In this document: positions 5,762-55,054 of the stretch, piece after piece
How the letters are laid out: the number at the start of each line of letters is the position of its first letter
Position numbering within the stretch: the stretch's first letter is position 1
Assembly: GCF_014201335.1 (NCBI RefSeq)
Contig: NZ_JACHEB010000012.1
Coordinates: 62,001 to 126,000, forward strand
From: Tunturiibacter gelidiferens
GTDB taxonomy: Bacteria; Acidobacteriota; Terriglobia; Terriglobales; Acidobacteriaceae
Direction: 5' to 3'
Length of the DNA stretch: 64,000 nt
Program-made: the position numbers and the translations under genes
Notes under the pieces: model-generated
What the model saw: only the letters and a program-made list of their open reading frames with translations
Told to the model about the DNA's origin: nothing
Databases searched by the model: none

Positions 5762-5780
5762 CACTGGACATCAATCTACC

Positions 5781-8825: not shown

Positions 8826-8854
8826 AGGATAGCACCGCTGGCCAAACCCGGCAA
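8826..8854 (-). promoter_or_regulatory. Candidate promoter of rpsO-pnp
   Basis: Minus-strand TTGCCG (-35) and TATCCT (-10) are spaced by exactly 17 nt, about 50 nt before the rpsO start. Each box matches 4 of 6 consensus positions. Confidence 0.4.
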
Positions 8855-8893
8855 TCGTGGGCAGCCAGCAGTGATAACGATTTAGAACACTTT

Positions 8894-9583: not shown

Positions 9584-9697
9584 AGGTCAATCATAGCGAT
9601 ACACCAAAGAACTTTGCCGATGTGAGGTGTCAAATAAAAGTAAAATTGTCCGTTTTTAGCGAGGACGAATTTCAGACACGCAGAAGTCGCGCTCTGC

Positions 9698-9940: not shown

Positions 9941-10032
9941 TCAAGTATAGGCACTCGGAGCCCCAAATGTTCTCTCCACAATCGCCCAGCCGCGTCTCCC
10001 ACAACTCCTAAAAGCATTTAAGCTTGTAGCAA

Positions 10033-11352: not shown

Positions 11353-11407
11353 TTTGGCCTCCCCACCGCCGCACTTGCTAAGCTGACTCGAACCTCCCAA
11401 CTGGTCC

Positions 11408-12523: not shown

Positions 12524-12532
12524 CTCCCACAA

Positions 12533-14439: not shown

Positions 14440-14477
14440 ACAATCAGTATATCGCCCATGGTCTAGCATCGCTTCCA

Positions 14478-15452: not shown

Positions 15453-15576
15453 AGCTTCTCCGGACGATTGAGCTAATATTACGGACTTACAACATAGATC
15501 GTATCGCTATCATCCTCATCTTGCTTAGTACAGGATGCGTATGCGCCTAAGTTCACGTAACAAGGGAGATTGCGAA

Positions 15577-28165: not shown

Positions 28166-28177
28166 TTGCTCAATCTC

Positions 28178-31579: not shown

Positions 31580-31610
31580 CAACTTCGTTCTCCCATGAGC
31601 TGCGGCCAGA

Positions 31611-33740: not shown

Positions 33741-33750
33741 AACTCTGCTC

Positions 33751-40348: not shown

Positions 40349-40819
40349 TTACTTGTCGTAAAGCACCGGATCACCGAGACTACCTGCGGGCGGCAGGTTT
40401 CGAATAAACAAAACAATCGACCATATCTCGTCATCGCTCAGAATCCCCCTCGAACCCGGCATGCCGGATGGAGCAACACCATAATCGATCACCCATTTGA
40501 GCTGTCCATCCGTGTAGGACTGAATCTTGCTAGAGCTAAGCAGAGGTACCGGAGGCGACATGGCATCTGCGAACGGGACACCGGTGTTTTGACCATCCAT
40601 CCCATGACATGCGACGCAATAGTGCGTGAAAGCTTCCCGCCCCGCAGTGATGTTTGCGTCAGAACGCTGGAGCGGATTACGTTGTGCGCGGTTGCGAACG
40701 AATAAAGAGTGCTTGCTCCAAGTCAAAACGCTGTCCTCTATCCTGCCGGGAGGAGCAGATTTACATCCAGTCATTGCCACTAGATAGAGCAGCATCAAGA
40801 TTGGAGTGGCCCTGTGCAT
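40349..40819 (-). CDS. Class I cytochrome c, probable lipoprotein
   Basis: 156 residues. N-terminal hydrophobic signal ending AMTGC (Cys19) suggests a lipid anchor, though the lipobox is not ideal. The heme-binding C-V-A-C-H is at residues 68-72 and the likely axial Met120 lies in SGMPGSRG. It is a periplasmic electron carrier. It is encoded 2 nt after a CuA-domain protein, which suggests the two pass electrons to each other. Confidence 0.9.
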   Translation of the reverse strand: MHRATPILMLLYLVAMTGCKSAPPGRIEDSVLTWSKHSLFVRNRAQRNPLQRSDANITAGREAFTHYCVACHGMDGQNTGVPFADAMSPPVPLLSSSKIQSYTDGQLKWVIDYGVAPSGMPGSRGILSDDEIWSIVLFIRNLPPAGSLGDPVLYDK

Positions 40820-40821
40820 CG

Positions 40822-41190
40822 CTAGTCTGTCACGTGAAGGGTTAATGTCATTGAGCCGTGACCGGATCCACAGAACACTGAACAGTGCCCTACAAAGTCG
40901 CCGGTTTGTGTGGGCGTGAATGCGAGTTCTGCCGTCTTTCCCTTTTCAATCTTCGTGTTAAGGTTCAATTCCTTGAATTTCAGACCATGCGCAACGTCTT
41001 CGGTTGTCAACTTGATTACTACCGGCTCACCTTTCTTCAGGGTGATTTGTGACGGCTCGTAGGCGAAGCGCTTAACCGAAACATTGACCGTGATGGGAGC
41101 ATCGGAGGTCGAAGCAAATCCCGGCGCAACAAATGAGCCGATAGATAAAATACTCACTAAAACTGCTTTGGCTGAAACCTTGTATGTCAT
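40822..41190 (-). CDS. CuA-type cupredoxin (cytochrome oxidase subunit II-like)
   Basis: 122 residues from the ATG at 41190 (AAAGGTGG upstream), with a signal peptide (about residues 1-26). The C-terminal C-S-V-F-C-G-S-G-H-G-S-M provides Cys103, Cys107, His111 and Met114, and His68 lies in DVAHGLKF: a full binuclear CuA ligand set as in oxidase subunit II and nitrous oxide reductase. There is no membrane-anchored oxidase subunit I nearby, so it is a stand-alone CuA protein. An ATG at 41247 in frame would bury the signal peptide. Confidence 0.88.
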   Translation of the reverse strand: MTYKVSAKAVLVSILSIGSFVAPGFASTSDAPITVNVSVKRFAYEPSQITLKKGEPVVIKLTTEDVAHGLKFKELNLNTKIEKGKTAELAFTPTQTGDFVGHCSVFCGSGHGSMTLTLHVTD

Positions 41191-41315
41191 TTCACGACAC
41201 CACCTTTTCCTGGGTTTTGCGAACATCATCAAAGCTACATCCGTCATTCATGTCGAGAATGGAATGTAGACATATCAATATTCTTGACCTTAGTTGACTC
41301 ACTTGGTTTAGTTGT

Positions 41316-41364: not shown

Positions 41365-41754
41365 TCAGATCTCCAGCAGGGTGGGAATTAATTCTGAAAC
41401 CAAGCGTTTAATCGTAATCCTGGAAGAGACAAATCCCAGACATTCCGATCTTTGGGCGTCGTAGAATAAGATGGTTTCCGTTCCAACAATCAACGTTCGT
41501 AGTTCTCCCGCGGAGAGTAGGGTGATTGGGGAAATATCATTGGCCGCCAATGCATCTCGAATAAGGTGCCAAGAAACCACAGCAGGCAGATTTTCAGCTC
41601 TTCGGGTACTCCAAGAGCGCCGAACTGCCAACGCGATTCCTAACTCATTTGATCGGACAGAACATCGGCTGGGGCCAACGCTATCGGCGAACACATATGG
41701 CGTTGCTACGAACCGTCGTAAAAGGTCTGGAGACCTCATCGCATCGAGCTTCAA
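41365..41754 (-). CDS. Hypothetical protein coupled to HprK-like kinase
   Basis: 129 residues. Its ATG overlaps the stop codon of the HprK-like kinase (ATGA), so it is translated with it. I do not recognise a named domain. The N-terminal region (FVATPYVFADSVGPSRCSVRSNELGIALAV) faintly resembles the N-terminal strand region of the kinase (LRFAGVVCDLITNSLELRALL), so it may be a duplicated N-terminal domain. No signal or membrane segment. It holds the slot where PqqD-like proteins sit in related HprK systems, but it is not clearly PqqD-like. Confidence 0.65.
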   Translation of the reverse strand: MKLDAMRSPDLLRRFVATPYVFADSVGPSRCSVRSNELGIALAVRRSWSTRRAENLPAVVSWHLIRDALAANDISPITLLSAGELRTLIVGTETILFYDAQRSECLGFVSSRITIKRLVSELIPTLLEI

Positions 41755-42731
41755 GCAAACATCTCCCGCGTTTGATTAGCGACAAACTCAACAAGATACT
41801 CCGCGGCGACCTGGGGAGTTCCTCCGTACCGCAGTAACCAACATGGTAGTCTTGATACCATTTCGAGCGTGAGATCTCGCATTGCAGAAGCTTCATATAG
41901 CTCCGGCGGCAATCTCTCCACGCTAGAATTGAGATAGCTTCTAGCTTTTCTCGATGCTACAGAAGCGAACTCAACCTTGAATTCTGGTATTCGCTCCAAA
42001 AAAATCAACCATCGCGGTTCACATGATTTTTCAACTCGGACCGTGAATGCTTCGGCGACGTCCACCTCGTAAGCTAACTCGCCATTCATCGATTTCTGTG
42101 GGCGATAGCTCGCCAAACGAGGAAAGTGATTGGTAGCATCTGGTAACAGCTTGACCGGAGCTGATGTGCCGAACGCTACCAGAGAGCTCTGATGTCGTGA
42201 CATGTAGGTCCAGTCATCGGAGACGTAGCTGAATCCATTTTGCGCAAGGGCGACAGACAACGTAGATTTTCCCGCACCTGACAATCCCGCTATTAGTAAT
42301 CCGTCACCACTTCGCTCAAGACACGCGCAATGCATGGGAACCAACCCCATGGCAGCACCTAACACTCCCAGAGAGATTGGGATAAGCTTCTCCCTCCAGA
42401 AACGGAGGTCTATGGCTGCTACTCTCGAGATACTGGCGCTAAGTGTGCGGCGCAGAACATCGAAGATGAAAATATTGCCAGTGCCAAACGAAGCTGTCAC
42501 GACGTGGCGTAAACCGCGGAAGTGGGGCTCTTCAATCGGGTCGAATGAAGATTCGTTCACTACAACGAGCATGCTAAATCGATTCCCAGATTCGCAGTTC
42601 TCGACGTGGGAAAGCTGGCTTAGTAGAGCTCGAAGTTCTAACGAGTTTGTGATCAGATCACACACCACACCCGCGAAACGAAGCTCTTGGGCGTAGGGCA
42701 GAATCGTTGGATCGACCGAAACTGACTTCAT
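41751..42731 (-). CDS. HprK-like P-loop kinase
   Basis: 326 residues. The C-terminal half carries the Walker A motif G-L-S-G-A-G-K-S-T (149-157) followed by YVSDDW (171-173 SDD), the arrangement of HPr kinase/phosphorylase-like proteins, with PMHCACLERSGDGLLIAG just before. The N-terminal half is a divergent beta domain. HPr and phosphotransferase genes are absent, so it belongs to the HprK-related kinases found in EPS, exosortase and some peptide clusters, whose targets are mostly unknown. It is divergent from the radical SAM operon over 140 nt. Confidence 0.85.
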   Translation of the reverse strand: MKSVSVDPTILPYAQELRFAGVVCDLITNSLELRALLSQLSHVENCESGNRFSMLVVVNESSFDPIEEPHFRGLRHVVTASFGTGNIFIFDVLRRTLSASISRVAAIDLRFWREKLIPISLGVLGAAMGLVPMHCACLERSGDGLLIAGLSGAGKSTLSVALAQNGFSYVSDDWTYMSRHQSSLVAFGTSAPVKLLPDATNHFPRLASYRPQKSMNGELAYEVDVAEAFTVRVEKSCEPRWLIFLERIPEFKVEFASVASRKARSYLNSSVERLPPELYEASAMRDLTLEMVSRLPCWLLRYGGTPQVAAEYLVEFVANQTREMFA

Positions 42732-42811
42732 CGGAACACCTGTCGAACTTCACTCTATCGCAAGGGATACGAGATTTTCACCGACCCAAAATAACTTTAC
42801 AAAGCGCTGAC

Positions 42812-42862
42812 ATGGATATGACAACTGCTGCCGCCGCAAGTCATATCGTCCAAAATAAGTGA
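42812..42862 (+). CDS. 16-codon mini-ORF upstream of the radical SAM operon
   Basis: ATG at 42812 opens MDMTTAAAASHIVQNK with a TGA at 42860 that overlaps the ribosome binding site of the first radical SAM gene. No ribosome binding site is visible before its own ATG. It could be a leader peptide or chance. Reported because the operon has no other visible peptide candidate. Confidence 0.15.
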   Translation: MDMTTAAAASHIVQNK

Positions 42863-42871
42863 GGAATCGAA

Positions 42872-44389
42872 TTGCCTAAAGCCCGCAAAGTCGTCTTCTT
42901 CTTTCCCTCTTTCGCGAGCTCTGATGCCACCGCACCACTGGGTATTCTCGCTGTTGCCACTCCCTTGATCCGTGCTGGCTATGAGGTTGTGCTCATTGAC
43001 TCCACGATCACCCCGAACTATAAGCTACGCGTACTAGAAGAAGTAAAGGATGCGATCTGTCTCGGAATTTCTTTGGTTACCGGACCGATGATTCGGGAAA
43101 CTGTCGAGATTGCCAAAGCGATAAAGGCTCGAGATTCCAAGTTCCCTATTGTCCTAGGCGGCTGGCACCCCTCCCTTCTACCTACACAGACACTTGAAGC
43201 CCCGTACATCGACTACGTTATTTGTGGGCAGGGAGAAGAGTCCTTCCTTGAATTGGTCGGACACATTGAGAATCAGTCCGCTCCGGATTTTGTCTCAGGT
43301 ATTGGTTTCAAGCGAGACAACAAACTGACATTCACACCCGAGCGTGCGCTTCGGCCCATTGTGGACCAGCCGCCCAAGGCCTATCAAATCGCAGACTTTG
43401 ATGCCTATGAGCGAATGTGTGGAAAGCGTTGGGCGATGTACACCTCCAGCCTGGCTTGTCCCTTCGATTGCGCTTATTGCACCAACGGCGCCGTCTATAA
43501 ACGCAAATGGAACGCGCTTCCAGCGGAGCAATTCGTTGAAGAGACCATCGACCTTAGCCGCAGGTACAACCTCAGTATGCTTTGGATAGTCGACGATAAT
43601 TTCCTCGTCGATTTGGAACGCGCGCGAGCCATAGGCGAGGGTCTGGTACGCGAAGGCGCAGAGTTTCAGTGGAGTATTCAAGCAACCACAAATCTGACCT
43701 CCCGGCTTTCTCTGGAAGACCTGAAATTGTTGCGTCGCAGCGGCCTTCACCAGATCTGCCAAGGTGTAGATTCCGGGTCTCCAAAGATCTTGAAGGCGAT
43801 GAACAAGACATTTCAAAACTTTGAGGATATTTACGAGAGCGCGGCAAGATGTTTAGCCGCAGGAATGCGGCCATCTTTCAATATTATTTTCGCCTACCCT
43901 GGAGAAGGCCCCAAAGAACGCCGAGAGACTATGAATTTCATTATGGATGTCTGCCGGCGCTTTCCAGGCACCGAGTTCTGGACGAACATCTTCACTCCGT
44001 ATCCCGGAACCAATGTGATGAACAGGGCTGCCGAACTTGGGATAGAAGTTCCCGACTCCCTCGAAAAGTGGGCCGAATTTTTTCCACGTTATACCAAGCT
44101 CCCATGGCTGAACGGGCGTGATCACGAAGAATTACAAATTATGCGCGATTACCTCCGAATTGCTTTTGATCGGATTCCTATCGGAGTTGACCGCCGAACT
44201 CGCATTACTCGTCTCGCTCAGAAATGCATTTCTTTCCCAGCGCGGTTCCGACTCGATCATGGACTGTATCGTTTTCCTGCCGAACTCTGGTTGAATGACA
44301 AACTAAAAGCAAGGACCGCCGGATTCAAACCGGTCGTCGACGCGCGCCGATTGGAGCCCAACCCTGAGCAGGTCGAGGCCGCATGCTGA
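42872..44389 (+). CDS. B12-binding domain radical SAM protein 1
   Basis: 505 residues from TTG 42872, with GAGGAA upstream. The N-terminal cobalamin-binding-like Rossmann domain spans about residues 5-135 (APLGILAVATPLIRAGYEVVLID, LGGWHPSLLPTQTL, ICGQGEE). The radical SAM core opens with C-P-F-D-C-A-Y-C (Cys196, 200, 203) binding the [4Fe-4S] cluster; DDNFLVD and GVDSGSPKIL are typical core strands. The C-terminal segment contains YRFPAELWL. Enzymes of this type (class B methylases, cyclases) use SAM and often methylcobalamin to modify unactivated carbon. Substrate unknown. First gene of a nine-gene run; overlaps the next by 7 nt. Confidence 0.9.
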   Translation: MPKARKVVFFFPSFASSDATAPLGILAVATPLIRAGYEVVLIDSTITPNYKLRVLEEVKDAICLGISLVTGPMIRETVEIAKAIKARDSKFPIVLGGWHPSLLPTQTLEAPYIDYVICGQGEESFLELVGHIENQSAPDFVSGIGFKRDNKLTFTPERALRPIVDQPPKAYQIADFDAYERMCGKRWAMYTSSLACPFDCAYCTNGAVYKRKWNALPAEQFVEETIDLSRRYNLSMLWIVDDNFLVDLERARAIGEGLVREGAEFQWSIQATTNLTSRLSLEDLKLLRRSGLHQICQGVDSGSPKILKAMNKTFQNFEDIYESAARCLAAGMRPSFNIIFAYPGEGPKERRETMNFIMDVCRRFPGTEFWTNIFTPYPGTNVMNRAAELGIEVPDSLEKWAEFFPRYTKLPWLNGRDHEELQIMRDYLRIAFDRIPIGVDRRTRITRLAQKCISFPARFRLDHGLYRFPAELWLNDKLKARTAGFKPVVDARRLEPNPEQVEAAC

Positions 44390-45885
44390 GCAAAGGTAAG
44401 GTCGTTCTCTTTTACCCGCCCTATGATGGACCTCCACTGGGCGCTCCGCTTTGCTTACTCGCCCTTGCCGCGAGCCTACGCGAAGCTAACTTCGACGCTG
44501 TCCTGATCGACGCCGCCATCGAACCGAACTACCTCTCTCGCGTTGAGTGCGAATCTGTGGACGCTCTCTGCGTTGGCATCTCCGTTTTGACGGGGCCGAT
44601 GATCCGCGGCGCCATAGAGGTTGCAAACACGATCAAGAACCAAAGCCCGTGGCTGCCGATTATTTTTGGTGGTTGGCACCCCTCTCTTCTGCCAGACCAA
44701 ACCCTAAGCGAGAGCTTCGTGGATATGGTTGTCCGTGGTCAGGGAGAAATTACACTTGTAGAAACAGTTCAAGCCTTGGCACAACACAGATCCCTCAACA
44801 ACATCGCTGGTCTTTCATGGAAAAGCGATGGGCGACGTGTCCACAATGCTGATCGTAGGGTAGAACCCCTTGATTCACTGCCACTCCCCGCGTTCGACCT
44901 CACCAATTTTGAAGCTTACGAAGAGATCTCTGGTGTGCGCAAACTCGCCTATGCCACCAGCGTTGGGTGTCCTTATGCATGCAATTACTGTACAGACATG
45001 GTCTTTTATAAACGCCGATTTAATGCACTCTCGGCGGACCGGACTGTGGCTGAGATGATTGACCTGGTAACTCGGTATCGCATCGACGAAGTAGCTTTGC
45101 TGGACTCTAACTTCCCGGTTCAGCTACCGCGAGCACTCCAGATTGCCCGTGGCATCATCGATTCGGGAGTCAAGTTCAAGTGGACCTTCCAGGCCTCCAC
45201 AGATTTCCTATGCCGCATGAGTGAAGATGATGTACGCCTCTTAGGCGCCAGCGGTGTTTCACACATGGGCTTCGGTACGGAGTCAACATCGGACTCCGTC
45301 CTCAAACTTATGAATAAGCGGCATCAGCGGGTCGATGAAATGTATGAAACTGCACGCAAGGCTCAGTTAGGTGGTATTCGTGTCACGTTCAATCTAATCT
45401 TCGGTTATCCGGGCGAGACAGAAGCGGATCGAATTATCACTTTTCAGACAATGAGCGACATTGGCCGCCAGTTCCCCAACGTCAGTTTCTCTCCAAATAT
45501 CTTCACTCCGTATCCAGGAATTCCGATTTGGCCTCAACTGCGAGACCTTGGTGTTCCCGAGCCGAAAAATCTACGCGAATGGATGGATATGCCATTGGGA
45601 GCCAACATGTTGCCGTGGCTCACGGGTAACGAGTTAGCGAGACTTCAACGCATGCTCAAATATTTTCTCCTCAACAATCAAATTGATCGCCAGCAAAATA
45701 GCTATTCGCGACTACGACGCACTGTCAGGGTTATCGTTCAAACGCCGATCAGGTGGCGACTCCGTTCGAGCAACTACTCATTCCCTTGGGAACTCTGGCT
45801 CTCTAACATATCCGAGCACATAGTACTCCGTCGTTCGCTGGTGACTGGTCAAGAGCTTCCAAAGGAGCCCGTCAATGCATGCTGA
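44383..45885 (+). CDS. B12-binding domain radical SAM protein 2
   Basis: 500 residues, close paralogue of protein 1 and collinear with it: the radical SAM cysteines (C-P-Y-A-C-N-Y-C) fall at the same residues 196, 200 and 203. The N-terminal half shares GPMIR, FGGWHPSLLPDQTL and RGQGE. The core has LLDSNFPV in place of DDNFLVD, and GTESTSDSVLKLMNK. The C-terminus keeps YSFPWELWL. Probably the same chemistry at a different position or substrate. The start codon overlaps the end of gene 1 (ATGCTGA), so translation is coupled. Confidence 0.9.
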   Translation: MLSKGKVVLFYPPYDGPPLGAPLCLLALAASLREANFDAVLIDAAIEPNYLSRVECESVDALCVGISVLTGPMIRGAIEVANTIKNQSPWLPIIFGGWHPSLLPDQTLSESFVDMVVRGQGEITLVETVQALAQHRSLNNIAGLSWKSDGRRVHNADRRVEPLDSLPLPAFDLTNFEAYEEISGVRKLAYATSVGCPYACNYCTDMVFYKRRFNALSADRTVAEMIDLVTRYRIDEVALLDSNFPVQLPRALQIARGIIDSGVKFKWTFQASTDFLCRMSEDDVRLLGASGVSHMGFGTESTSDSVLKLMNKRHQRVDEMYETARKAQLGGIRVTFNLIFGYPGETEADRIITFQTMSDIGRQFPNVSFSPNIFTPYPGIPIWPQLRDLGVPEPKNLREWMDMPLGANMLPWLTGNELARLQRMLKYFLLNNQIDRQQNSYSRLRRTVRVIVQTPIRWRLRSSNYSFPWELWLSNISEHIVLRRSLVTGQELPKEPVNAC

Positions 45886-45910
45886 CCCGACGAAGAGAGG
45901 GGGATAATCG

Positions 45911-47413
45911 ATGGCTGACGTTCTGCTGACACATTCTTACCATCTCCCTTACGATCCCAAGCAGGTGCGAAAGATGCAGCCGTATCCGCCTCTCGGGACG
46001 CTCTACGCTGCGTCCGCTCTAAGAGCCGGAGATATCGCTGTTGCCGTGTTCGACACCATGCTCGAAGATCCCAACTCGGGCTTTACAGCGGCCTTGCTAG
46101 AGCACTGCCCTAAGCTCGTTGTCATCTACGAAGATGATTTCAATTTTCTCTCGAAAATGTGCCTCACTCGCATGCGTCAACTCGCTTGGCAACTCGCTCA
46201 CCAAGCAAAGCAATCTGGTGCGGTTGTAATAGCGCATGGTTCGGACATGACAGATCAGGCCGAGTCTTACCTCCGCAACAACGTCGATTTCATTTTGCTG
46301 GGTGAAGCTGAAGAAACGCTCGTAGCTCTGTGTTCCGCGATTCTCTCCGGTGCCCCGCACTTGGACATACCAGGCCTCGCATATCTTGACGCGGCAGGAA
46401 CTCTCTCAAAAAGCGCAGGCGGCATCCCAAAGAACCCATCGTGGAATAGTCTGTCGCGACCCTCACGCGAGCTGATTGACCTAGCACCTTATCGCCAGGC
46501 GTGGTCCTCCGCGCACGGTCATTTCTCAACAAACATCGTGGCCAGTCGCGGATGTCCCTACCGATGTAACTGGTGTGCAAAGCCAATTTCTGGCAACAAG
46601 TTTCAGATCCGCTCGGCCAAAGCCGTAGCAGCTGAGATCCGGGAGCTGAAAGAAATTTATGGTGTTGAGCACATCTGGTTTGGCGATGATGTGTTCGCAT
46701 TAAATCATCAATGGGTGCAAGACCTCGCAGACGAAATTGAAGCGATGAAATGCGCTCTCCCTTTTAAGATACAGTCTCGTGCTGATTTAATGACACCGAA
46801 TACTGTTGCAGGGCTCAAAAGAGCAGGGTGCGCTGAGATATGGATGGGGGTCGAATCTGGGTCGCAGCGAATACTCGATGCGATGGACAAGGGACTAACT
46901 GTCAATGATGTGACCACTGCACGGACCCTGCTTGCCGACAACGATATGCGCGCGTGCTTTTTCCTGCAATTTGGTTATCCAGGCGAGACATGGGAAGACA
47001 TTCAACGAACTATTGACCTAGTACGTAGCATGCGCCCTGACGACATTGGCATCTCTTTCTCTTACCCACTTCCAGGGACAGCGTTCTATGAGCGCGTACG
47101 GGAGCAGATCGGAACTAAACGAAATTGGACCGATAGTGACGACCTATGCGTCATGTTTTCTGCCGCCTATAACAATGACTTTTACATGGCGCTACGAAAT
47201 GCACTTCACGCTGAGGTCGACTCTTGGAAAAATGACCCCGACACAGTTGCGAATTCAATTGACCCAGTGACTCTTTGGCAGCGTGTTTTTGAGCTCGAAG
47301 CCGTCAGCAAAAACTCCGCCGCAACATTCTCCGTCGGCGCAATGGCCGCTGGTTCAGGCAAACACGAGTTTGTTCCTCTGCAAACGCTACTCCCGCCTGA
47401 GAGGCAGGTTTAA
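45911..47413 (+). CDS. B12-binding domain radical SAM protein 3
   Basis: 500 residues of a second subgroup. The N-terminus is MADVLLTHSYHLPYDPKQVRK with YPPLGTLYAASAL, a cobalamin-binding-like domain in which the usual GGxHPS loop is replaced by AHGSDMT. The radical SAM motif is G-C-P-Y-R-C-N-W-C (Cys215, 219, 222), followed by IWFGDDVFALNHQWV and GVESGSQRILDAMDKG. About 40 unusual C-terminal residues (after RVFELEAVSK) are not shared with protein 4. GAGAGGGG precedes the ATG by 9 nt. The gene starts 25 nt after the previous stop, the largest gap within the operon. Confidence 0.9.
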   Translation: MADVLLTHSYHLPYDPKQVRKMQPYPPLGTLYAASALRAGDIAVAVFDTMLEDPNSGFTAALLEHCPKLVVIYEDDFNFLSKMCLTRMRQLAWQLAHQAKQSGAVVIAHGSDMTDQAESYLRNNVDFILLGEAEETLVALCSAILSGAPHLDIPGLAYLDAAGTLSKSAGGIPKNPSWNSLSRPSRELIDLAPYRQAWSSAHGHFSTNIVASRGCPYRCNWCAKPISGNKFQIRSAKAVAAEIRELKEIYGVEHIWFGDDVFALNHQWVQDLADEIEAMKCALPFKIQSRADLMTPNTVAGLKRAGCAEIWMGVESGSQRILDAMDKGLTVNDVTTARTLLADNDMRACFFLQFGYPGETWEDIQRTIDLVRSMRPDDIGISFSYPLPGTAFYERVREQIGTKRNWTDSDDLCVMFSAAYNNDFYMALRNALHAEVDSWKNDPDTVANSIDPVTLWQRVFELEAVSKNSAATFSVGAMAAGSGKHEFVPLQTLLPPERQV

Positions 47414-48811
47414 ATGGCAGAGCTTCTATTAACTCACGGCTACTTCCTATATGAAGACCCCAAGGAGCTTCAGATTCTGAAGCCCTACGCCCCACTCGGA
47501 ATCTTGTATTTGTGCTCTCATTTGCAGAAGCAAGGATTTGATGTAGATGTCTTTGACACCACATTCTCCAGTCGTGAAGCGCTCTTCAATCACCTGCGCA
47601 CCGAGACGCCCTCGGTCATTGGCATCTACGCCAATCTCATGACACGGAGCAATGTGGTGGAAATTCTGAGAGTAGCGCGTGAGGCAGGCTGGAAGACGAT
47701 CGTAGGTGGCCCCGAACCAGGTGCGTACGCTCTCGAGTATCTTGAGTCGGGCGCGAACTATGTCGTCTTCGGTGAGGGTGAACTCACAATGCAGGAGCTC
47801 CTAGAAGCTTTTCGCGCTGATGACACTGCCGCATGCACTACCATCTCCGGACTAGCCTACCTTGATGTCGCCGGAAACATGCAGGAAAACTCCCCGCGTA
47901 ATCAAATAGCCGATCTCGATAGTCAACCATGGCCAGCTCGTCACGCTATAGATATTGCCCGCTACGTCAAGACATGGCGCGACGCACACGGTAAAGGTTC
48001 GATCAACTTCATTACTGCTCGTGGATGCCCTTATAAATGTCGTTGGTGCAGTCATCAAGTCTTCGGTCAAACTCATCGTCGTCGTACCCCACGGCTCGTC
48101 GTCGATGAAGTGGAGTGGCTCCTCACAACCTATTCTCCGGACATGGTCTGGGTATCTGACGACGTCTTTACTATCAATCATCAGTGGCTTCGCGATTACG
48201 CTAGAGAGATGCAACTACGCGGCCTCCGCATTCCCTTCGAGTGCATCTCTCGCGCAGATCGTCTGAACCCAGAGATGCTTGACCTTCTCGCTGAACTTGG
48301 TTGTTTCCGGATCTGGATCGGCTCTGAAAGCGGGTCGCAACGCATCCTCGACTCCATGGATCGTGGCGTAAAAATCGAACAGGTACAACAAGCTGTCGCC
48401 ATGAGCCGCGAAAGAGGCATTGAAAGCGGCATGTTCCTTATGTGGGGCTACGAAGGTGAAGAGCTAGAAGACATCGAAGCAACGATCAAGCACGTCAGCA
48501 TCTCCAAACCAGATGTATTCTTTACGACCGTCTCTTATCCCATCAAAGGGACACCCTATTACCAGAAAATCTCCAGTCGCCTCGTACAGTTGAAGCCATG
48601 GGGAGTTAGTTCGGATCGCGAGATCAAGATCAAGGGACGTCACTCGCAGAAGTTTTACAGCTACGCAGACAAGCTCCTTCGAGATGAGGTCCAACTCGCT
48701 CGCATGGCCGAATCTCCCGACGCTGAATCCGAACGCGCATCCAGTCTGCGCCACGAGATCGCGCTCGCCCGCGCTGCTTTGCTCTCAATCCAGACCGAGG
48801 TGGAAGCATGA
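47414..48811 (+). CDS. B12-binding domain radical SAM protein 4
   Basis: 465 residues, paralogue of protein 3: the N-termini align (MAELLLTHGYFLYEDPKELQ, YAPLGILYLCS, VFDTTF) and the core has G-C-P-Y-K-C-R-W-C (Cys205, 209, 212), VWVSDDVFTINHQWLRD and GSESGSQRILDSMDRG. Unlike protein 3 it keeps a VGGPEPGAYALEYL loop in the cobalamin-binding domain. The start ATG directly abuts the TAA of the previous gene, and the end overlaps the first methyltransferase gene by ATGA, so translation is coupled on both sides. Confidence 0.9.
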   Translation: MAELLLTHGYFLYEDPKELQILKPYAPLGILYLCSHLQKQGFDVDVFDTTFSSREALFNHLRTETPSVIGIYANLMTRSNVVEILRVAREAGWKTIVGGPEPGAYALEYLESGANYVVFGEGELTMQELLEAFRADDTAACTTISGLAYLDVAGNMQENSPRNQIADLDSQPWPARHAIDIARYVKTWRDAHGKGSINFITARGCPYKCRWCSHQVFGQTHRRRTPRLVVDEVEWLLTTYSPDMVWVSDDVFTINHQWLRDYAREMQLRGLRIPFECISRADRLNPEMLDLLAELGCFRIWIGSESGSQRILDSMDRGVKIEQVQQAVAMSRERGIESGMFLMWGYEGEELEDIEATIKHVSISKPDVFFTTVSYPIKGTPYYQKISSRLVQLKPWGVSSDREIKIKGRHSQKFYSYADKLLRDEVQLARMAESPDAESERASSLRHEIALARAALLSIQTEVEA

Positions 48812-49626
48812 TTCCGACGGCGACGGCGCAGCCACAAGCCATTCTAGCCTTCGACCAATTGGCGAAGCGGTACGACGATCTGTTTACTAGATCTCTCATC
48901 GGGCGCGCTCAACGAAATGCGGTATGGAGAGTGATCGCAGAGACATTTCAATCCGGAGACCAAGTTCTGGAATTGAACTGTGGCACCGGCGAAGACGCCC
49001 TTTTCCTTGCCAGCAAAGGAGTCTCCGTGGTTGCCTGCGACGCTTCCGAACAAATGATCGAGTATGCCCAACAGCGCCTTCGTACCGAAGCTCCGACCAC
49101 TGTCGTGAAGTTCGCCCAACTGCCAATCGAGCAAATCGCTGAGATTCGCACGGAAGGCACTTTCGACGGGGTCTTCTCAAATTTTTCAGGTCTAAATTGC
49201 GTCGCTGATCTCAGCCAAACAGCAGAAGACTTGGCAACTCTCCTTGCGCCGGGCGCTCCCCTTATTATTTGTCTTTCAACCCGCTTTTGTATCTCAGAAA
49301 TCATCTGGTTTCTCATTCACGGAAGGCCCCACGAAGCGTTTCGAAGATGCTCGGGCCACGCTGCGGCTAAAGTAGGCGAATTCGTTGTAGATGTCTACTA
49401 TCCAACCCTGCGTCAGCTGCAAAAATCGTTCTCGCCCGCCTTCGTGATGCGTTCCTGCGCCGGCATCGGAATCACAGTTCCTCCTTCTTACGTTGAACCA
49501 TGGATCCGCAAATGCCCAAACTTGCTGCACGTCATGGAGACGATCGACAAAGCCCTCTCGGTGTGCCCGGGATTTCGGGTGATTGGCGATCACATGCTCA
49601 TTAGTTTCGAAAGAGTCCGGGTATGA
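48808..49626 (+). CDS. Class I SAM-dependent methyltransferase
   Basis: 272 residues. Motif I V-L-E-L-N-C-G-T-G is at 53-61, with the ribose-binding acidic residue in VVACDAS (Asp78) and FDGVFSNFSGLNCV as motif IV region. Small-molecule type (UbiE/BioC-like fold) without extra domains. About 100 residues after the Rossmann core may form the acceptor cap. The target is unknown, probably the product of the neighbouring radical SAM enzymes. ATGA overlaps couple it to the genes on both sides. Confidence 0.88.
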   Translation: MIPTATAQPQAILAFDQLAKRYDDLFTRSLIGRAQRNAVWRVIAETFQSGDQVLELNCGTGEDALFLASKGVSVVACDASEQMIEYAQQRLRTEAPTTVVKFAQLPIEQIAEIRTEGTFDGVFSNFSGLNCVADLSQTAEDLATLLAPGAPLIICLSTRFCISEIIWFLIHGRPHEAFRRCSGHAAAKVGEFVVDVYYPTLRQLQKSFSPAFVMRSCAGIGITVPPSYVEPWIRKCPNLLHVMETIDKALSVCPGFRVIGDHMLISFERVRV

Positions 49627-50621
49627 TCGCGATGGCTCACAAGGAATCCATCGATTTTCGTGCGGACGAAGACAATGACGTTCGTCTTCGATGCCCTCGA
49701 TGCGGGGGGTGGATCAGTAGTTTGTCAAATACGAATGTTACTGACGCTATATTGGTCTGTTCCGACTGTTGCCTAAAGCTGTCGAGCGAGGAGGGTATTT
49801 GGAGAGCTTTGCTTCCCGAACGCGTCTCTCACTTCTCCCGCTTCATTCGTGACTATGAGTTTATTCGCTCTGCGGAGGGCCGCGGCAGCGTGGATGCAGA
49901 GTACTATTTGGCGTTACCTAATCGCGACCTGTCAGGAAACAACAGTCAACAATGGATCATACGAGCCAGGACGTTTCGTTACATCGAGCGACATATTCTC
50001 CCTGGCTTGAAACCCGATAATGGAAAGCGGCTTCGAATTCTGGACCTTGGCGCAGGTAACGGATGGATGAGCTATCGGCTAGCTCTTGGAGGTTACGCGC
50101 CTGTGGCAGTGGATCTGCTTACCAACGACAGAGACGGGCTAGGCGCCGCAATTCACTATCAGAAGCAGCTTACTACTCTCTTTCCACGCGTCCAGGCAGA
50201 GCTCGACGTCCTTCCTCTCATGGACGACGCGTTTGATCTTGTCATCTTCAACGCTTCATTTCACTATTCCGAAGACTACGAGAAGACCATTGCTGAAGCA
50301 TTACGTTGCACGTGTGCGGGTGGCACAATTCTTATTGCCGACACCCCATGGTATCGCAACGAAGCAAGCGGACAACAAATGGTAAACGAACGGCGTAGGT
50401 CTTTCACTCAACGGTATGGCATTGCCTCTGACAGTCTCAACAGCCTCGAATTCCTCACCGATCAACGTCTCCAAAGACTGGAGGCGCGCTTCGGACTTCG
50501 TTGGCAGGCGCATACGCCGAGTTACGGCATCCGCTGGTTCATGCGGCCATTACTCGCCAAAGTGCAGGGCAGACGTGAACCATCTCAATTTCGAATCTAT
50601 AGTGCCCGAGTACAAAAATGA
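49623..50621 (+). CDS. Class I methyltransferase with N-terminal zinc ribbon
   Basis: 332 residues. Four cysteines in two pairs (Cys24, Cys27 in RCPRCGG and Cys46, Cys49 in CSDCC) form a likely Trm112-like zinc ribbon. Residues about 139-260 form the SAM-binding core with D-L-G-A-G-N-G (141-147), LPLMDDAFDLVIFNASFHY and a following ADTPWYR segment. The ribbon may bind zinc, structure the N-terminus or contact a partner. Function beyond methyl transfer is not seen. It overlaps genes on both sides by ATGA. Confidence 0.87.
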   Translation: MIAMAHKESIDFRADEDNDVRLRCPRCGGWISSLSNTNVTDAILVCSDCCLKLSSEEGIWRALLPERVSHFSRFIRDYEFIRSAEGRGSVDAEYYLALPNRDLSGNNSQQWIIRARTFRYIERHILPGLKPDNGKRLRILDLGAGNGWMSYRLALGGYAPVAVDLLTNDRDGLGAAIHYQKQLTTLFPRVQAELDVLPLMDDAFDLVIFNASFHYSEDYEKTIAEALRCTCAGGTILIADTPWYRNEASGQQMVNERRRSFTQRYGIASDSLNSLEFLTDQRLQRLEARFGLRWQAHTPSYGIRWFMRPLLAKVQGRREPSQFRIYSARVQK

Positions 50622-52081
50622 TCATTCTCTTTAATCCGCGAGCCACAAACCCACGCAACCGACGGCTTCCCCTTGCTGTATTGGCTATTGCCGCCGTACT
50701 CGAGGGATGCGAAGACTACGAGATTGTCGACGGTAACGTGGATGACAATCCCGTAGCCACCATTTCGCGGCTAATCGAACAATACGACGTTGAGCTACTC
50801 GGCGTCTCGGTCATGCCAGGACCACAGATGGTCGCGGCGATGGACGCTTCCCGTGAGATACGACGAGCCTATCCTCACGTCAAGATCGTTTGGGGTGGCT
50901 ACTTCCCTTCCGTCTATCCAGATGCCGCGCTCAATGCAAAATATGTAGACTACATCGTTCGCGGCCAAGGCGAAGAAACCCTACTTGAACTTCTGGACGC
51001 GATGCGCGGCAGGCGAGCTTTCGACTCCATTCTCGGCCTCTCCTACAAAGACATCTTCGGGCTCCCAAGGAATAACGCTGAGCGGCCTATGAAAGGACCT
51101 GATGAATTTCCTTGGTCGCCATTCCATCGACTGCCTGTCGAGAAATATCTTCGCCCCTCTTTTTTTGGAAAACGTACCGCCGTCCATCACGCCAGCATTG
51201 GCTGCCCGTTTAACTGCAGCTTCTGTGGTGTCCACGCTGCTTACGGAAACAAAGAGCGTATGGAGTCTCCAGAGCGTACCGCCGCCATTCTCTCCCATTT
51301 GGTGACCGAGTACGGTGCTGATTCGGTCCAGTTCTATGATATGAATTTCTTTCTTAGAGAAGATCACGCTCTCGAGCTTGCTAAGAGAATTGAACATCTC
51401 AATCTTCGCTGGTGGTGCGAAGCCAGGGTCGATGTGATGTCCCGGTACTCTGACGAAACCTTCGCTGCGCTCAAACGCGCCGGTTGCACGATGATCTTCT
51501 TCGGCGCAGAGTCAGGCTCCGACTGGGCTCTCAAAGAGATGAACAAGGGCATTAATACAGAGCAAACAGTCACAATCGCAGAGCGAACAAAACAATTCGG
51601 TATCATTCCTGAGTTCTCCTTCGTCATCGGAAACCCCGGCGATCCCGAACGTGACACACGGGAGACTCTCGCCTTCATTCGCAAATTGAAGAAGATTAAC
51701 CCTGACTCCGAGATCATCATCTACCACTACACGCCGGTGCCGCAGCCTGGAAACATGTATGGCAATGTGGACGGCCAGATAGCGTGGCCGTCGACGCCCG
51801 CAGAGTGGGCTTCAAAGCGGTGGATGGATTTCACTTTGCGCATCGACACACAAGCTCCGTGGCTTCAACGTAAAACGAAAGATCTCATAGACAACTTCGA
51901 GACTGTCATTGGCTCGCGATGGCCAACAGTACAGGACATCCGCGCGCCGAAGTGGAGCCGCATTCTCCTAAAAACTCTCAGTGCATGGCGATACGCTCTC
52001 GGAGTTTATCGCTTTCCGGTTGAACTTCAATGGGCCAACGAATTCATCAGCCTCCGCAAACCAAAGCGAGAAAGTCTGTGA
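50618..52081 (+). CDS. B12-binding domain radical SAM protein 5
   Basis: 487 residues, same subgroup as proteins 1 and 2: the radical SAM cysteines (G-C-P-F-N-C-S-F-C) again fall at residues 196, 200, 203, the cobalamin-binding domain has WGGYFPSVYPDAAL and RGQGEE, and the C-terminus ends with YRFPVELQWANEF. The core strands carry FYDMNFFL and GAESGSDWALKEMNKG. It is separated from its two paralogues by the group of proteins 3-4 and two methyltransferases. It ends in a GTGA overlap with the next gene. Confidence 0.9.
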   Translation: MIILFNPRATNPRNRRLPLAVLAIAAVLEGCEDYEIVDGNVDDNPVATISRLIEQYDVELLGVSVMPGPQMVAAMDASREIRRAYPHVKIVWGGYFPSVYPDAALNAKYVDYIVRGQGEETLLELLDAMRGRRAFDSILGLSYKDIFGLPRNNAERPMKGPDEFPWSPFHRLPVEKYLRPSFFGKRTAVHHASIGCPFNCSFCGVHAAYGNKERMESPERTAAILSHLVTEYGADSVQFYDMNFFLREDHALELAKRIEHLNLRWWCEARVDVMSRYSDETFAALKRAGCTMIFFGAESGSDWALKEMNKGINTEQTVTIAERTKQFGIIPEFSFVIGNPGDPERDTRETLAFIRKLKKINPDSEIIIYHYTPVPQPGNMYGNVDGQIAWPSTPAEWASKRWMDFTLRIDTQAPWLQRKTKDLIDNFETVIGSRWPTVQDIRAPKWSRILLKTLSAWRYALGVYRFPVELQWANEFISLRKPKRESL

Positions 52082-54027
52082 CTGCAACTGCTTTGTCCTC
52101 CTTTGATGTCTTCGATACCTGGGCGCAGGTCTACGATGAGCAGCCTAATCCGCTCCTCATGCTGGAGCAACGTTTTCTAAGTCAGATGCTCCCAGATATC
52201 AACGGCCTGCACGTGCTGGATGCCGGCTGTGGCACCGGCCGGTGGCTCCAGTTCCTGGCGCCACGTGGCGCCGCGAGTTTGACTGGCGTGGACTCGTCAA
52301 CAAAGATGCTGCGCCGCGCCGAAGAAAAAATTGGAACCACCTGCTCCCTGCGACAAGGAACTTGCACGGCTCTGCCCATACCTGACAACAGAATTGACCT
52401 CGTCGTGTCTTCTTTCGTTTTAAGCTATCTCGAAAACTTGAAAGACGTCGCTAGGGAACTGCACCGAGTTACCCGTCCAGGTGCCAATGTCTTTTTGACA
52501 GATATGCATCCAGGCACTGCAATCTCCTGTAATTGGACAAGGTCATTCACTCACGATGGGTCAACAGAGAAACTCCGTGTGCATGGACACTCCCTGCAGG
52601 CGATAGTTAATACTTTCAAAGCTTACGGCTTCGAACTACTTGCGAACGTCCAGCCCGCTTTCGATTTAGAGGAGAGAAAAATATTCGAGGAAAACGACAG
52701 GCTGGCGTTTTATGAAGAATCCGCAGACTTCCCTGCTGTATACATTCTGCAGTTACAAAAAAAAACGCTCACGTCGAAGTTCGCTGATGCAAGCGAAAGC
52801 TCTCAGTCGCTTCGCCTCTCGGGAGGCAGATATGCTCTCGGGCCTAGCTCTGCAGCCGAAGGGTCGATTGAGATCGAACGCGGGCATATACGCTCTCTCT
52901 TGGCCAAAGGGCCTGTCACCGGGGAGACGCAAACAGGGCGGAAGGAAACCGTAGACTTGTCCCGCTACATATTGCTTCCGGGTTTGATCAACGCTCACGA
53001 TCATCTTGAGTTCAGCCTCTTCCCAAACCTCGGCGTCGGACCATATCTGAATTCAACCGAGTGGGCGAGGGAGATCCATCGGACCCACGCGGCCACAATT
53101 GCCTCCCATCGCAAGGTGCCAAAGCAAACCCGATTGCGATGGGGGGCGATCCGCAATCTCCTCTGCGGGGTGACTACCGTCTGCCATCACAACCCTCTCT
53201 CGCGCGAACTGGTCGCCCCCGATTTTCCAGTTCGGGTACTCGCCAGATTCGGGTGGGCACACTCTCTGGCGATGGATCCGAATCTCCTGCACAACTTTGA
53301 CCATACGCCACCGAATCTTCCCTTCGTAGTTCACGCCGCTGAAGGCGTCGATGCAAAAAGCGCGCAGGAGATCTTTGATTTGGATCGGCTGGAAATTCTC
53401 GATGAACGAACTATACTTGTACATGGTCTGGCCCTGAATCACAAAGCGATTTCACTTCTTAATCAACGTCGCTCAGCACTCGTGATTTGCCCCACTTCGA
53501 ATCAATTCCTCTTTCATTCTTCTCTTTCCGCAACCCTGATCAAATCAATTAACACAGTCGTTCTAGGCAGCGACTCTCCACTCACCTCTGCTGGTGATCT
53601 GCTCGACGAAATAAATTTTGCGCGCAATGAAATTGGCCTCGATGCGGAGTCTCTCTTCGACATGGTTACCGTAAGATCGGCCAGGGTCCTGCGGCTCCGG
53701 AACGGAGAGGGGCGTCTTCGTCCGGGAGCCATAGCCGATCTTATCGCCGTGCCCGACAAGGGCCTTACACCGGCAGAAACCGTTGCGCAACTTACGGTAG
53801 ATCAGGTTGAACTAGTCATATTAGAAGGCAGGGTCCAACTCGCAAGCGATTCTCTATTTGCTTCTCTTCCCAACTCACTTCAAGTCGGACTGCAGCCCCT
53901 ATTCGTCGACGGCATAAGGCGATGGTTACGGGCTCCAATTGAGAGTCTGTTGGCCCAGGCAAGAAAAACTCTTGGACGAGACATTCGAGTCGGCGGAAAG
54001 AAGGTGGAACATGCCAGTGCTGCATGA
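52078..54027 (+). CDS. Fusion of class I methyltransferase and metal-dependent amidohydrolase
   Basis: 649 residues from GTG 52078, chosen because it forms the GTGA overlap with the previous gene, in line with this operon. An ATG at 52030 gives 16 more residues. Residues 1-235 are a SAM methyltransferase (V-L-D-A-G-C-G-T-G 46-54, LPIPDNRIDLVVSSFVLSYL). After a short linker, residues about 245-630 are an amidohydrolase of the chlorohydrolase/deaminase superfamily: GLINAHDHLEF (His307, His309), VVHAAEG (His419), LVHGLAL (His449) and LGSDSPL (Asp499). The relatives include MTA/SAH deaminases. It could remove SAH or 5'-deoxyadenosine made by its neighbours, or deaminate the product; both are inference. 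Confidence 0.85.
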   Translation: MTATALSSFDVFDTWAQVYDEQPNPLLMLEQRFLSQMLPDINGLHVLDAGCGTGRWLQFLAPRGAASLTGVDSSTKMLRRAEEKIGTTCSLRQGTCTALPIPDNRIDLVVSSFVLSYLENLKDVARELHRVTRPGANVFLTDMHPGTAISCNWTRSFTHDGSTEKLRVHGHSLQAIVNTFKAYGFELLANVQPAFDLEERKIFEENDRLAFYEESADFPAVYILQLQKKTLTSKFADASESSQSLRLSGGRYALGPSSAAEGSIEIERGHIRSLLAKGPVTGETQTGRKETVDLSRYILLPGLINAHDHLEFSLFPNLGVGPYLNSTEWAREIHRTHAATIASHRKVPKQTRLRWGAIRNLLCGVTTVCHHNPLSRELVAPDFPVRVLARFGWAHSLAMDPNLLHNFDHTPPNLPFVVHAAEGVDAKSAQEIFDLDRLEILDERTILVHGLALNHKAISLLNQRRSALVICPTSNQFLFHSSLSATLIKSINTVVLGSDSPLTSAGDLLDEINFARNEIGLDAESLFDMVTVRSARVLRLRNGEGRLRPGAIADLIAVPDKGLTPAETVAQLTVDQVELVILEGRVQLASDSLFASLPNSLQVGLQPLFVDGIRRWLRAPIESLLAQARKTLGRDIRVGGKKVEHASAA

Positions 54028-55054
54028 GCCATCAACCAAACGATCTCCGCAGGCCGAGCGGATCGCACAGCTGCCGATCTTGATATTGAATGTGCATAGC
54101 CTCTGTAACTGTCGCTGTGTCATGTGCGACATCTGGAAACGTGAAAGTAAAGAACAGATTCGCCTGGAGAATCTGGAGCGCCACCGTCTTTCGTTGCAAC
54201 GACTCGGAGTCCGACAAATAGTCTTAACCGGAGGCGAACCGCTCCTCCATAACGATCTCGCAGCGCTTTGTACATTTTTCCGCGATCAGAGAATTCGGAT
54301 AACCCTCCTGACCACGGGTCTTCTGTTGTTGAAGCGTGCCTTTGAGATTGCAACCCTTTTCGACGACATCATCATTTCCCTGGACGGTCCCCGAGAGGTT
54401 CACGACGGTATCCGCCGTGTCAATGGAGCTTTCGATCTCATCCACAAGGGCGTCGGCGCGGTTCGCCGATCGAATCCATCCATACCCATAACTTGCCGGA
54501 CCACCGTCCAAAAAGCCAACCATCGTCATCTGCGAGAGACAGTAACTGCAGCCAAGAGTTGGGGCTTGAATTCCATCTCGTTTCTCGCAGCGGATCTAAC
54601 CTCCGAAGCCTTCAATCGTCTTCAGATATGGCCTGCCGAGAAACAAAACCAAATTGGTCTGACCCTCAAAGAGACAATCGATCTTGAAGTTGAAATCGAA
54701 CAGATGATTCAAGAGTTTGAGATCGACCTCAACCGAAGATTCATCGCCGAGTCACCGGCGAAGTTGCGAAGGATCACACGTCGCTTCCGCGAGCATCTCG
54801 GACAATTTTCTCCCGAGGCTCCCCTCTGCAACGCTCCCTGGGTCTCAGCCGTCGTTGAAATCGATGGCGATGTCCGTCCTTGCTTCTTTCACAACTCAAT
54901 AGGAAATATGACTCACTCGACTCTAGAAGACGTAGTCAACGGAGATCGGGCAAGGGAGTTCAGGGCTTCACTCGATGTGGAGACCAACGAAATCTGCAAG
55001 CGATGTGTGTGTTCGTTGAATTACAGTCTGGCAAGGAACACTCCGGTCGCCTAG
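54011..55054 (+). CDS. SPASM/twitch-type radical SAM protein
   Basis: 347 residues from ATG 54011 with AAGGTGG upstream; a longer frame from 53939 is unlikely. Radical SAM motif: Cys32, Cys36 and Cys39 (with an extra Cys34) in SLCNCRCVMCD. VLTGGEPLLHNDL is the SAM-binding GGEPLL motif and DIIISLDGPREVHDGIR the following core. The C-terminus has Cys273, Gly286, Cys291 (CX12GX4C) and Cys329, Cys332, Cys334: SPASM/twitch-like auxiliary cluster ligands. Such enzymes modify peptides, proteins or small molecules. No cobalamin domain. It overlaps the fusion gene by 17 nt and ends the operon. Confidence 0.9.
   Translation: MPVLHEPSTKRSPQAERIAQLPILILNVHSLCNCRCVMCDIWKRESKEQIRLENLERHRLSLQRLGVRQIVLTGGEPLLHNDLAALCTFFRDQRIRITLLTTGLLLLKRAFEIATLFDDIIISLDGPREVHDGIRRVNGAFDLIHKGVGAVRRSNPSIPITCRTTVQKANHRHLRETVTAAKSWGLNSISFLAADLTSEAFNRLQIWPAEKQNQIGLTLKETIDLEVEIEQMIQEFEIDLNRRFIAESPAKLRRITRRFREHLGQFSPEAPLCNAPWVSAVVEIDGDVRPCFFHNSIGNMTHSTLEDVVNGDRAREFRASLDVETNEICKRCVCSLNYSLARNTPVA

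Follow-up and report, generated by a model that had tools for sequence, protein, structure and literature searches.

Radical S-adenosylmethionine (SAM) enzymes of the cobalamin-type subgroup, whose chemistry has been described as a reservoir that is still largely untapped (PMC8992657, accessible part), include MgmA, OxsB, TsrM, CysS, TokK and AprD4, and two described pathways combine other functions that are considered below. The pseudoiodinine operon (psdABCDEFG) has GTP cyclohydrolase II, the product of which is a diamino-pyrimidinone, together with a RibD-like deaminase and methyltransferases, and a toxoflavin-like route has been proposed for it (PMC9911603, accessible part). Lasso peptide clusters can contain HPr kinase and nucleotidyltransferase genes as a tailoring pair (PMC7533575, accessible part). 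Here we describe an operon of nine open reading frames (ORFs; 42872-55054, forward strand) in a 64,000-nucleotide stretch of Tunturiibacter gelidiferens DNA, hereafter called the window. The operon encodes five cobalamin-type radical SAM enzymes, one SPASM radical SAM enzyme, two methyltransferases and one methyltransferase-amidohydrolase fusion. With middling confidence, we propose that it serves a non-peptide pathway in which a small scaffold, in all likelihood a riboflavin-precursor heterocycle rather than another compound, undergoes radical modification, methylation and deamination and is then glycosylated for surface display. The genes are:

42872-44389, forward: R1, B12-binding/radical SAM enzyme, 505 aa, TTG start (PF02310 67.5 bits, PF04055 73.1 bits; CxxxCxxC at 196)
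44383-45885, forward: R2, B12-binding/radical SAM enzyme and R1 paralogue (Pfam), missing or relocated in some relatives
45911-47413, forward: R3, radical SAM enzyme, its B12-binding-like domain divergent (B12 match under the Pfam cut-off)
47414-48811, forward: R4, B12-binding/radical SAM enzyme and R3 paralogue (Pfam)
48808-49626, forward: M5, class I SAM methyltransferase (Pfam, NCBIfam, alignment)
49623-50621, forward: M6, class I SAM methyltransferase carrying a zinc-ribbon-like CxxC...CxxC segment at its N-terminus (Pfam, motif)
50618-52081, forward: R7, B12-binding/radical SAM enzyme (Pfam; AlphaFold2 model)
52078-54027, forward: X8, methyltransferase (X8m) fused to a TRZ/ATZ-type amidohydrolase (X8a) (Pfam, alignment, model)
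54011-55054, forward: S9, radical SAM enzyme with a SPASM domain (Pfam, sequence relatives, alignment)

The genes are packed closely: R1 and R2 overlap by 7 nt (ATGCTGA), R2 and R3 are 25 nt apart, R3 and R4 abut (0 nt), the junctions R4/M5, M5/M6 and M6/R7 are 4-nt overlaps (ATGA), R7 and X8 overlap by 4 nt (GTGA) and X8 and S9 by 17 nt. S9 starts at the ATG at 54011, and the most likely start of X8 is the GTG at 52078. A first-pass annotation, made from the letters of the window alone, had read this arrangement as one coupled biosynthetic unit with several radical steps and a scaffold from elsewhere, and both the layout and this part of the interpretation are supported by our analysis. As it had also stated, no polyketide synthase, nonribosomal peptide synthetase or terpene synthase family was found by Pfam in the nine operon proteins and 15 window neighbours, the remaining window proteins having been read as translations only. 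Its further statement that no described pathway has such a composition agrees with our search, in which the open-access literature yielded no description of such a gene set; subscription papers lay outside its scope. The enzymes belong to known superfamilies, and we file the pathway as an uncharacterised multi-radical-SAM biosynthetic cluster.

All six radical SAM proteins contain the Radical_SAM Pfam domain, and a motif search located CxxxCxxC in each of R1, R2, R3, R4, R7 and S9, with the cysteines invariant in alignments of relatives (rows were chosen by score, 80-150 bits, and distant members are missing). The five cobalamin-binding-like N-terminal domains postulated earlier were recovered over the curated Pfam cut-off in R1, R2, R4 and R7, and R3 stayed below it with 22.1 of 32.1 bits. 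On these domain and motif matches, R1, R2, R3, R4 and R7 qualify as predicted cobalamin-type radical SAM enzymes. The genome holds eight B12-binding-domain matches, of which five lie in the operon; those elsewhere include frames of 167 aa and 946 aa, sizes that we take to fit a mutase subunit and methionine synthase. Two paralogue pairs are apparent, R1/R2 (39% identity) and R3/R4 (34%), and R7 groups with R1/R2 in a quick FastTree analysis. When the R7 model (predicted local distance difference test score, pLDDT, 91.0) was compared with solved structures, the 15 best PDB matches were all B12-type radical SAM proteins (MgmA, OxsB, TsrM, AprD4, CysS, TokK). R7 thus shares their fold and CxxxCxxC, and the Pfam domain pair is also present in R1, R2 and R4, yet the operon departs from these known enzymes in that identity is low (15-21% between R7 and the 15 matches), no listed NCBIfam cut-off is reached and five such enzymes stand together.

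Among the best NCBIfam families considered (up to 25 per protein), no listed match of any operon protein reaches its cut-off, and on this ground the known B12 radical SAM equivalogs, including BchE, HpnJ, HpnR, ApyD, PhpK and AprD4, were ruled out; the best radical SAM score among the matches listed is that of R4 against BchE (156.5 of 481.35 bits). The presence of BchE, HpnJ and the 'lipid biosynthesis' model TIGR04072 among the top relatives would suit a membrane lipid or a cofactor of known type as the target, a reading that we hold to be very unlikely: the scores are far under cut-off (R7 against HpnJ, 118 of 577.6 bits), lipid-synthesis families are not prominent among the neighbours scanned, and an essential cofactor is disfavoured because 10 of 29 genus members have no X8 match. 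S9 carries a SPASM domain (PF13186, 49.1 bits, cut-off 21.5), and its three radical SAM cysteines as well as C297, C315, C353, C356 and C358 are invariant in 72 aligned rows. Its nearest solved relative is the cytosylglucuronate decarboxylase BlsE (55 bits), and by sequence it is also closest to the PTO1314 and twitch radical SAM families (85 bits), yet it remains far under the family cut-offs.

Pfam agrees with the earlier assignment of two class I methyltransferases and a methyltransferase-amidohydrolase fusion, since M5, M6 and the N-terminal region of X8 match methyltransferase families and X8 residues 434-601 match Amidohydro_1. The residues H323, H325, H435, E438, H465 and D515 of X8 (counted from the ATG at 52030), which make up an HxH, HxxE, H, D set, are invariant in 72 rows. 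In TRZ/ATZ-type deaminases, HxxE is the proton carrier. The X8a model (from 52765, pLDDT 92.8) matches dechlorinases and heterocycle deaminases, namely AtzA, TrzN and the adenosine/S-adenosylhomocysteine, guanine, isocytosine and aminofutalosine deaminases, so that X8a has both the TRZ/ATZ fold and the residue set, and it models as a predicted heterocycle deaminase. It differs from the TRZ/ATZ amidohydrolases in its low identity to them (14-20%) and in being fused to, or lying beside, a methyltransferase within a radical SAM operon. Judged from the model, an amidohydrolase of the isocytosine/guanine-deaminase fold would fit the product of GTP cyclohydrolase II.

An X8 match was found in 44 of 299 genomes of the class (E <= 1e-60), and 40 neighbourhoods were fetched, comprising 33 long-type loci, six short-type loci and one intermediate (L038); genes at loci were counted by tblastn, since the gene caller overcalls antisense frames. 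Whether relatives ever keep these genes together had been set as a test of the first-pass annotation, and they do: at 29 of the 33 long-type loci the run from R1 is kept in a single order and on one strand, apart from losses of R2, M6 or S9 and one move. Three of the others (L025, L031, L045) lie on contigs that are cut upstream. Because gene order is conserved in relatives, a chance arrangement is excluded. R2 and M6 are dispensable: among the 29 ordered loci, R2 is gone from eight and shifted between X8 and S9 in one (L027), and M6 was not found above 100 bits in five. A search of 13 genomes located R2 unlinked in five (G179, G095, G060, G099, G093) and found no orthologue in five others (G187, G040, G028, G088, G181; the last three being fragmented assemblies), and R2 was accordingly rejected as an essential component. 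Since R2 is lost or relocated in relatives, it looks like a tailoring step, and the products should vary. A cytochrome P450 family occurs beside the relocated R2 in one genus (L179:7908-8993; L180 ~8484-9566) and 3' of S9 in another family (L047, L048, L051), and is absent from the other loci examined, controls included (E <= 1e-8).

The fusion of X8 that had been described from the window proved to be confined to long-type loci of the window's family and of one other family; elsewhere, and at short-type loci, the amidohydrolase is a separate gene neighbouring the methyltransferase. The six short-type loci (L035-L037, L039-L041) hold a nucleotidyltransferase, M5, GTP cyclohydrolase II, R3, M6, the amidohydrolase, a GT1-type glycosyltransferase (GT) and a GT87 protein, and the intermediate locus L038 has R3, M6, the amidohydrolase, S9 and GT87. 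R3 is the sole B12-type radical SAM enzyme of the operon seen at these seven loci, and in the short-type loci it is 59-63% identical to R3 of the window. The common minimum of the pathway is R3, M6 and the amidohydrolase. Short-type loci, in which a single B12-type radical SAM enzyme is joined by two methyltransferases, a deaminase-like amidohydrolase and GTP cyclohydrolase II, are compact enough for expression as a whole and suggest a testable scaffold.

At the level of the phylum, 34 of 396 genomes have an R7 match (E <= 1e-70), and a scan of genome contigs gave at least 509 confirmed relatives, of which the best 80 were analysed (taxon groups were taken from record titles, which can be wrong for metagenome-assembled genomes, MAGs). 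By title, these 80 loci comprise 36 from Bacteroidota and 15 from Chloroflexota, besides Acidobacteriota, and further taxa are Alphaproteobacteria (Nitrospirillum, Azospirillum), a Gammaproteobacterium, Elusimicrobiota, Myxococcota, Latescibacterota, KSB1 and a cyanobacterial MAG. By our own score thresholds, at least two other core genes are present at 52 of the 80 and at least four at 36. Mucilaginibacter and Dyadobacter are among the genera with the core. R3 was detected at 24 of 36 Bacteroidota, four of four Alphaproteobacteria and three of 15 Chloroflexota loci. Because R4 and the amidohydrolase are infrequent at the Bacteroidota loci (at only 7 and at 12 of 36), outside the class R7 can stand alone or the gene set can be unlinked. 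Up to five cobalamin radical SAM enzymes thus serve one conserved pathway, and as its core recurs in several phyla, the product should be generally useful to bacteria. In a plasmid collection, 162 records match R7, none of them reaching 60% identity, and the 15 listed are 24-28% identical. A homologue of R7 (47%) also lies in a record titled as a Bifidobacterium breve MAG (L113), which probably bears a wrong label or contains foreign DNA.

The evidence for the nature of the scaffold comes from genes of riboflavin type (RibA, RibB), extra copies of which occur at some related loci. GTP cyclohydrolase II was detected at eight of the 40 neighbourhoods: each of the six short-type loci contains a copy, and two long-type operons (L019, L020) have one next to them. 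Identity to the L019 copy is 63-68% for the short-type copies and at most 61% for copies unconnected to the loci, and the motif HSQC...RCDC is kept in the three copies read. A second 3,4-dihydroxy-2-butanone 4-phosphate (DHBP) synthase is present in six of 64 genomes (G191, G218, G033, G215, G083, G181), that is, in five of six short-type genomes against one of 58 others (Fisher 4.7e-6, kinship uncorrected); set against X8, the same six fall among 44 positive and none among the 20 listed negative genomes, which is not significant (p 0.09). In G215, G191 and G083 a few kb separate the gene from the short-type HprK gene, in G033 it is about 13 kb from the locus and in G218 on another contig. In G181, a long-type genome of another family, genes for GTP cyclohydrolase II, DHBP synthase, an HprK-like protein and NTP_transf_5 directly adjoin one another on the same strand, some 17 kb from the operon (L189:12186-15819, C16). 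The notion that operon genomes generally have an extra GTP cyclohydrolase II was rejected: extra copies were seen in the six short-type genomes and in G179, G095, G060, G099 and G181; matches to RibD_C were too numerous to judge. Fused proteins of RibB-RibA type are encoded at L182:13960-15213 and L183:7719-8942, and by eye their cyclohydrolase half departs from RibA at several usually conserved positions.

These genes make early riboflavin precursors the most likely source of the scaffold, at a confidence clearly below even. They also bear on a different product, a metabolite of flavin, pteridine or toxoflavin type that would be derived from GTP, perhaps together with DHBP, and would be diffusible and secreted free, the polysaccharide genes being mere neighbours. 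The close kinship of the short-type and L019 cyclohydrolases, the second DHBP synthases, the X8a fold and the relation of S9 to BlsE would all suit such a metabolite, as would the likeness of the short-type loci to the pseudoiodinine/toxoflavin systems in joining GTP cyclohydrolase II, methyltransferases and a deaminase-type enzyme. We nonetheless consider it unlikely, since glycan genes, kinase, nucleotidyltransferase and GT87 recur too frequently to be passed over, and since a search of 20 genomes detected no second lumazine synthase and the extra riboflavin genes are missing from most genomes. The likeness to pseudoiodinine also has its bounds: a radical SAM enzyme is absent from the psd genes named in the accessible part of PMC9911603, the deaminase among those genes is RibD-like, and the window has no dedicated cyclohydrolase. 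Sulphatase-modifying-factor and WD-40 proteins, features of the pseudoiodinine type in the same part of that source, were not found in the nine operon and ten flanking proteins; the PD40 propeller repeat in the GT87 protein of a relative is distinct from the WD-40 feature.

The proposed surface display rests on the surroundings of the operon. In the window, these are:

41751-42731, reverse: HprK-related kinase, divergent from the operon, homologues of which recur at related loci (Pfam, tblastn)
40349-41247, reverse: COX2/CuA-like cupredoxin and cytochrome c genes, recurring near the operon (Pfam, tblastn)
39021-40319, reverse: NTP_transf_5 nucleotidyltransferase, homologues of which recur at related loci (Pfam, tblastn)
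36057-39008, reverse: SLBB/Poly_export polysaccharide exporter (Pfam)
34633-35949, reverse: KpsE/Wzz-like chain-length protein (GNVR over cut-off, Wzz just below)
32571-34605, reverse: two glycosyltransferases, GT4 (32571-33824) and GT2 (33751-34605) (Pfam)
27425-29755, reverse: secreted cupredoxin-like protein (by eye, no Pfam match) and coiled-coil/barrel-like protein, with homologues 3' of S9 in L025, L028, L031 and L042-L044

Neighbours in relatives include O-antigen ligase, GT87 and GT1, elsewhere GT4, PIG-L and P450, and also FkbM methyltransferases (that scan covered 93 of 118 listed proteins), an ABC exporter, polysaccharide deacetylase, Wzi and phosphoglucose isomerase; a pol-beta-like nucleotidyltransferase cluster, borderline in Pfam, is found in 26 loci. 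Within the class, glycan genes occur at 22 of 36 loci against one of 20 arbitrary 20-kb regions from 14 of the same genomes, a comparison that is biased, since several query proteins came from these very loci; HprK/NTP_transf_5 genes are at 20 of 36 loci and in none of the 20 regions. The 36 loci mix 29 long-type with seven short-type or intermediate ones and omit L025, L031, L045 and L046. Without the five closest siblings, the counts are 22 of 31 (glycan) and 15 of 31 (HprK/NTP_transf_5). Among the best 80 R7 loci, glycan labels are attached to 41 of the 52 that are rich in core genes and to 11 of the 28 that are poor in them. Of the 27 family members that match X8, 25 encode GT87, against two of 20 genomes without a match (kinship uncorrected; the 20 were listed out of 255 X8-negative genomes). 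Glycosyltransferase or export genes are thus linked to the core across unrelated taxa, the sign on which we predict a surface glycoconjugate pathway. The first-pass proposal of a natural product, cofactor or lipid was unspecific; the neighbourhoods suggest a glycosylated unit or one displayed with surface polysaccharide and, in some relatives, a riboflavin-precursor scaffold. Pieces of a second GT87 gene, some with internal stops, lie at G000:C7:334472-336054 (L074), apparently a decayed copy.

The same glycan neighbours, the nucleotidyltransferases, PIG-L and the polysaccharide deacetylases, together with AprD4, which acts on paromamine and is the nearest solved sequence relative of R7 (63 bits), would also accord with a sugar or cyclitol as substrate, that is, with a deoxygenated, branched or C-methylated sugar made as an exopolysaccharide precursor. 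We regard this as quite unlikely, as the X8a model matches heterocycle deaminases, the riboflavin-type genes would be left without explanation, and sugar-nucleotide genes were not seen to recur at the loci.

Enzymes of the SPASM and B12 radical SAM kinds frequently act on peptides, and the best NCBIfam relative of R2 is ApyD, an enzyme of ribosomally synthesised and post-translationally modified peptides (RiPPs; 129.2 bits, cut-off 750), which raises the question of whether S9 and the B12 enzymes might modify a ribosomal peptide. The relevant region is:

42732-42871, no strand: divergent intergenic region, probable promoter/operator (DNA conservation, inverted repeat)

This is the sole sizeable gap before the operon, and its DNA is conserved in siblings. 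In the window and in five siblings, one reading frame stays open for about 22 codons directly before R1. Because this stretch has no common start or stop and longer frames are broken, a precursor peptide in the gap is unlikely, though a very short one may fit. Moreover, no peptidase, transglutaminase-like or asparagine-synthase/synthetase family was found by Pfam in the nine operon and ten flanking proteins. The pairing of kinase and nucleotidyltransferase is common to lasso peptide tailoring (PMC7533575, accessible part) and to the window, yet the scanned proteins include no lasso cyclase or peptidase and the gap shows no convincing precursor. Maturation of a RiPP is, taken together, highly improbable. 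The gap also contains an inverted repeat 5' of R1, GATATGAC (42815-42822) and GTCATATC (42840-42847) with a 17-nt spacer, which is perfect in the window and in L013 and imperfect in L014, L016 and L017. Promoter and terminator scans gave site numbers no higher than in shuffles. No Rfam family reached the gathering threshold anywhere in the window, and riboswitch control was ruled out on that basis.

Returning to the glycosylated heterocycle that we favour, the operon would form the committed middle of a conserved non-peptide pathway. GTP cyclohydrolase II would provide a 2-amino-pyrimidinone, the type of target used by isocytosine/guanine-type deaminases, and DHBP synthase a four-carbon unit. 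The radical SAM enzymes would then act in turn on the small scaffold, R3/R4, R7 and R1/R2 methylating unactivated carbons or rearranging the skeleton and S9 adding one further radical step; M5, M6 and X8m would place methyl groups on heteroatoms, and X8a would take an amino group off the nitrogen heterocycle. The unit might next be phosphorylated or nucleotidylated by the HprK-like and NTP_transf_5 or pol-beta-like partners, and finally glycosylated (GT87, GT4, GT1) and delivered with the surface-polysaccharide machinery. If the surface link is true, radical C-methylation or rearrangement would join bacterial glycoconjugate chemistry.

Several observations count against this proposal. On the side of the scaffold, neither GTP cyclohydrolase II nor DHBP synthase has an extra copy in the genome of the window or in most operon genomes, so that housekeeping enzymes would have to supply the precursor there; GTP cyclohydrolase II was found at none of the best 80 R7 loci, each of the 20 genomes searched has a single lumazine synthase, and the riboflavin genes at these loci may serve another purpose. 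As to the enzyme set, the B12-binding match of R3, which belongs to the common minimum, is the one below cut-off, S9 is absent from L045, L046 and L052, and L046 has just R7 and the methyltransferase-amidohydrolase pair of X8, about 8 kb upstream and 3 kb downstream being free of further operon genes. At 28 of the best 80 loci, R7 is accompanied by one other core gene at most. On the side of display, GT87 is unlinked to the operon in the window's genome and is present in only four of 17 X8-positive genomes outside the family, and most matches to M6, GT2 and GT4 in phyla other than Acidobacteriota have low scores (about 45-90 bits in Bacteroidota).

Copper-type proteins, cytochromes c and outer-membrane barrels (DUF5777) recur near the pathway, as at 40349-41247 and 27425-29755 of the window, L048:15660-17159, L089:16461-18968, L182, L183 and L186, and MtrB/PioB is found near a 31%-identical amidohydrolase match in Nitrospirillum. 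A redox role for these proteins is possible. As a long shot, the product could belong to a widespread and hitherto undescribed class of surface-bound redox heterocycles. Up to five B12 radical SAM enzymes would carve a flavin- or lumazine-like unit made of a GTP-derived pyrimidine and DHBP, and this unit would be methylated, deaminated, converted by kinase and nucleotidyltransferase, glycosylated and displayed with exopolysaccharide beside copper proteins, cytochromes and barrels, possibly for surface electron transfer.

Across the window, GC skew is clearly negative at 1-16000 and near zero over most of 16000-56000, and GC content is lower at about 32-56 kb. A histidine kinase/response regulator pair at 29759-32294 is a candidate controller, and homologues of the regulator are present at L023, L024, L030, L043 and L076.

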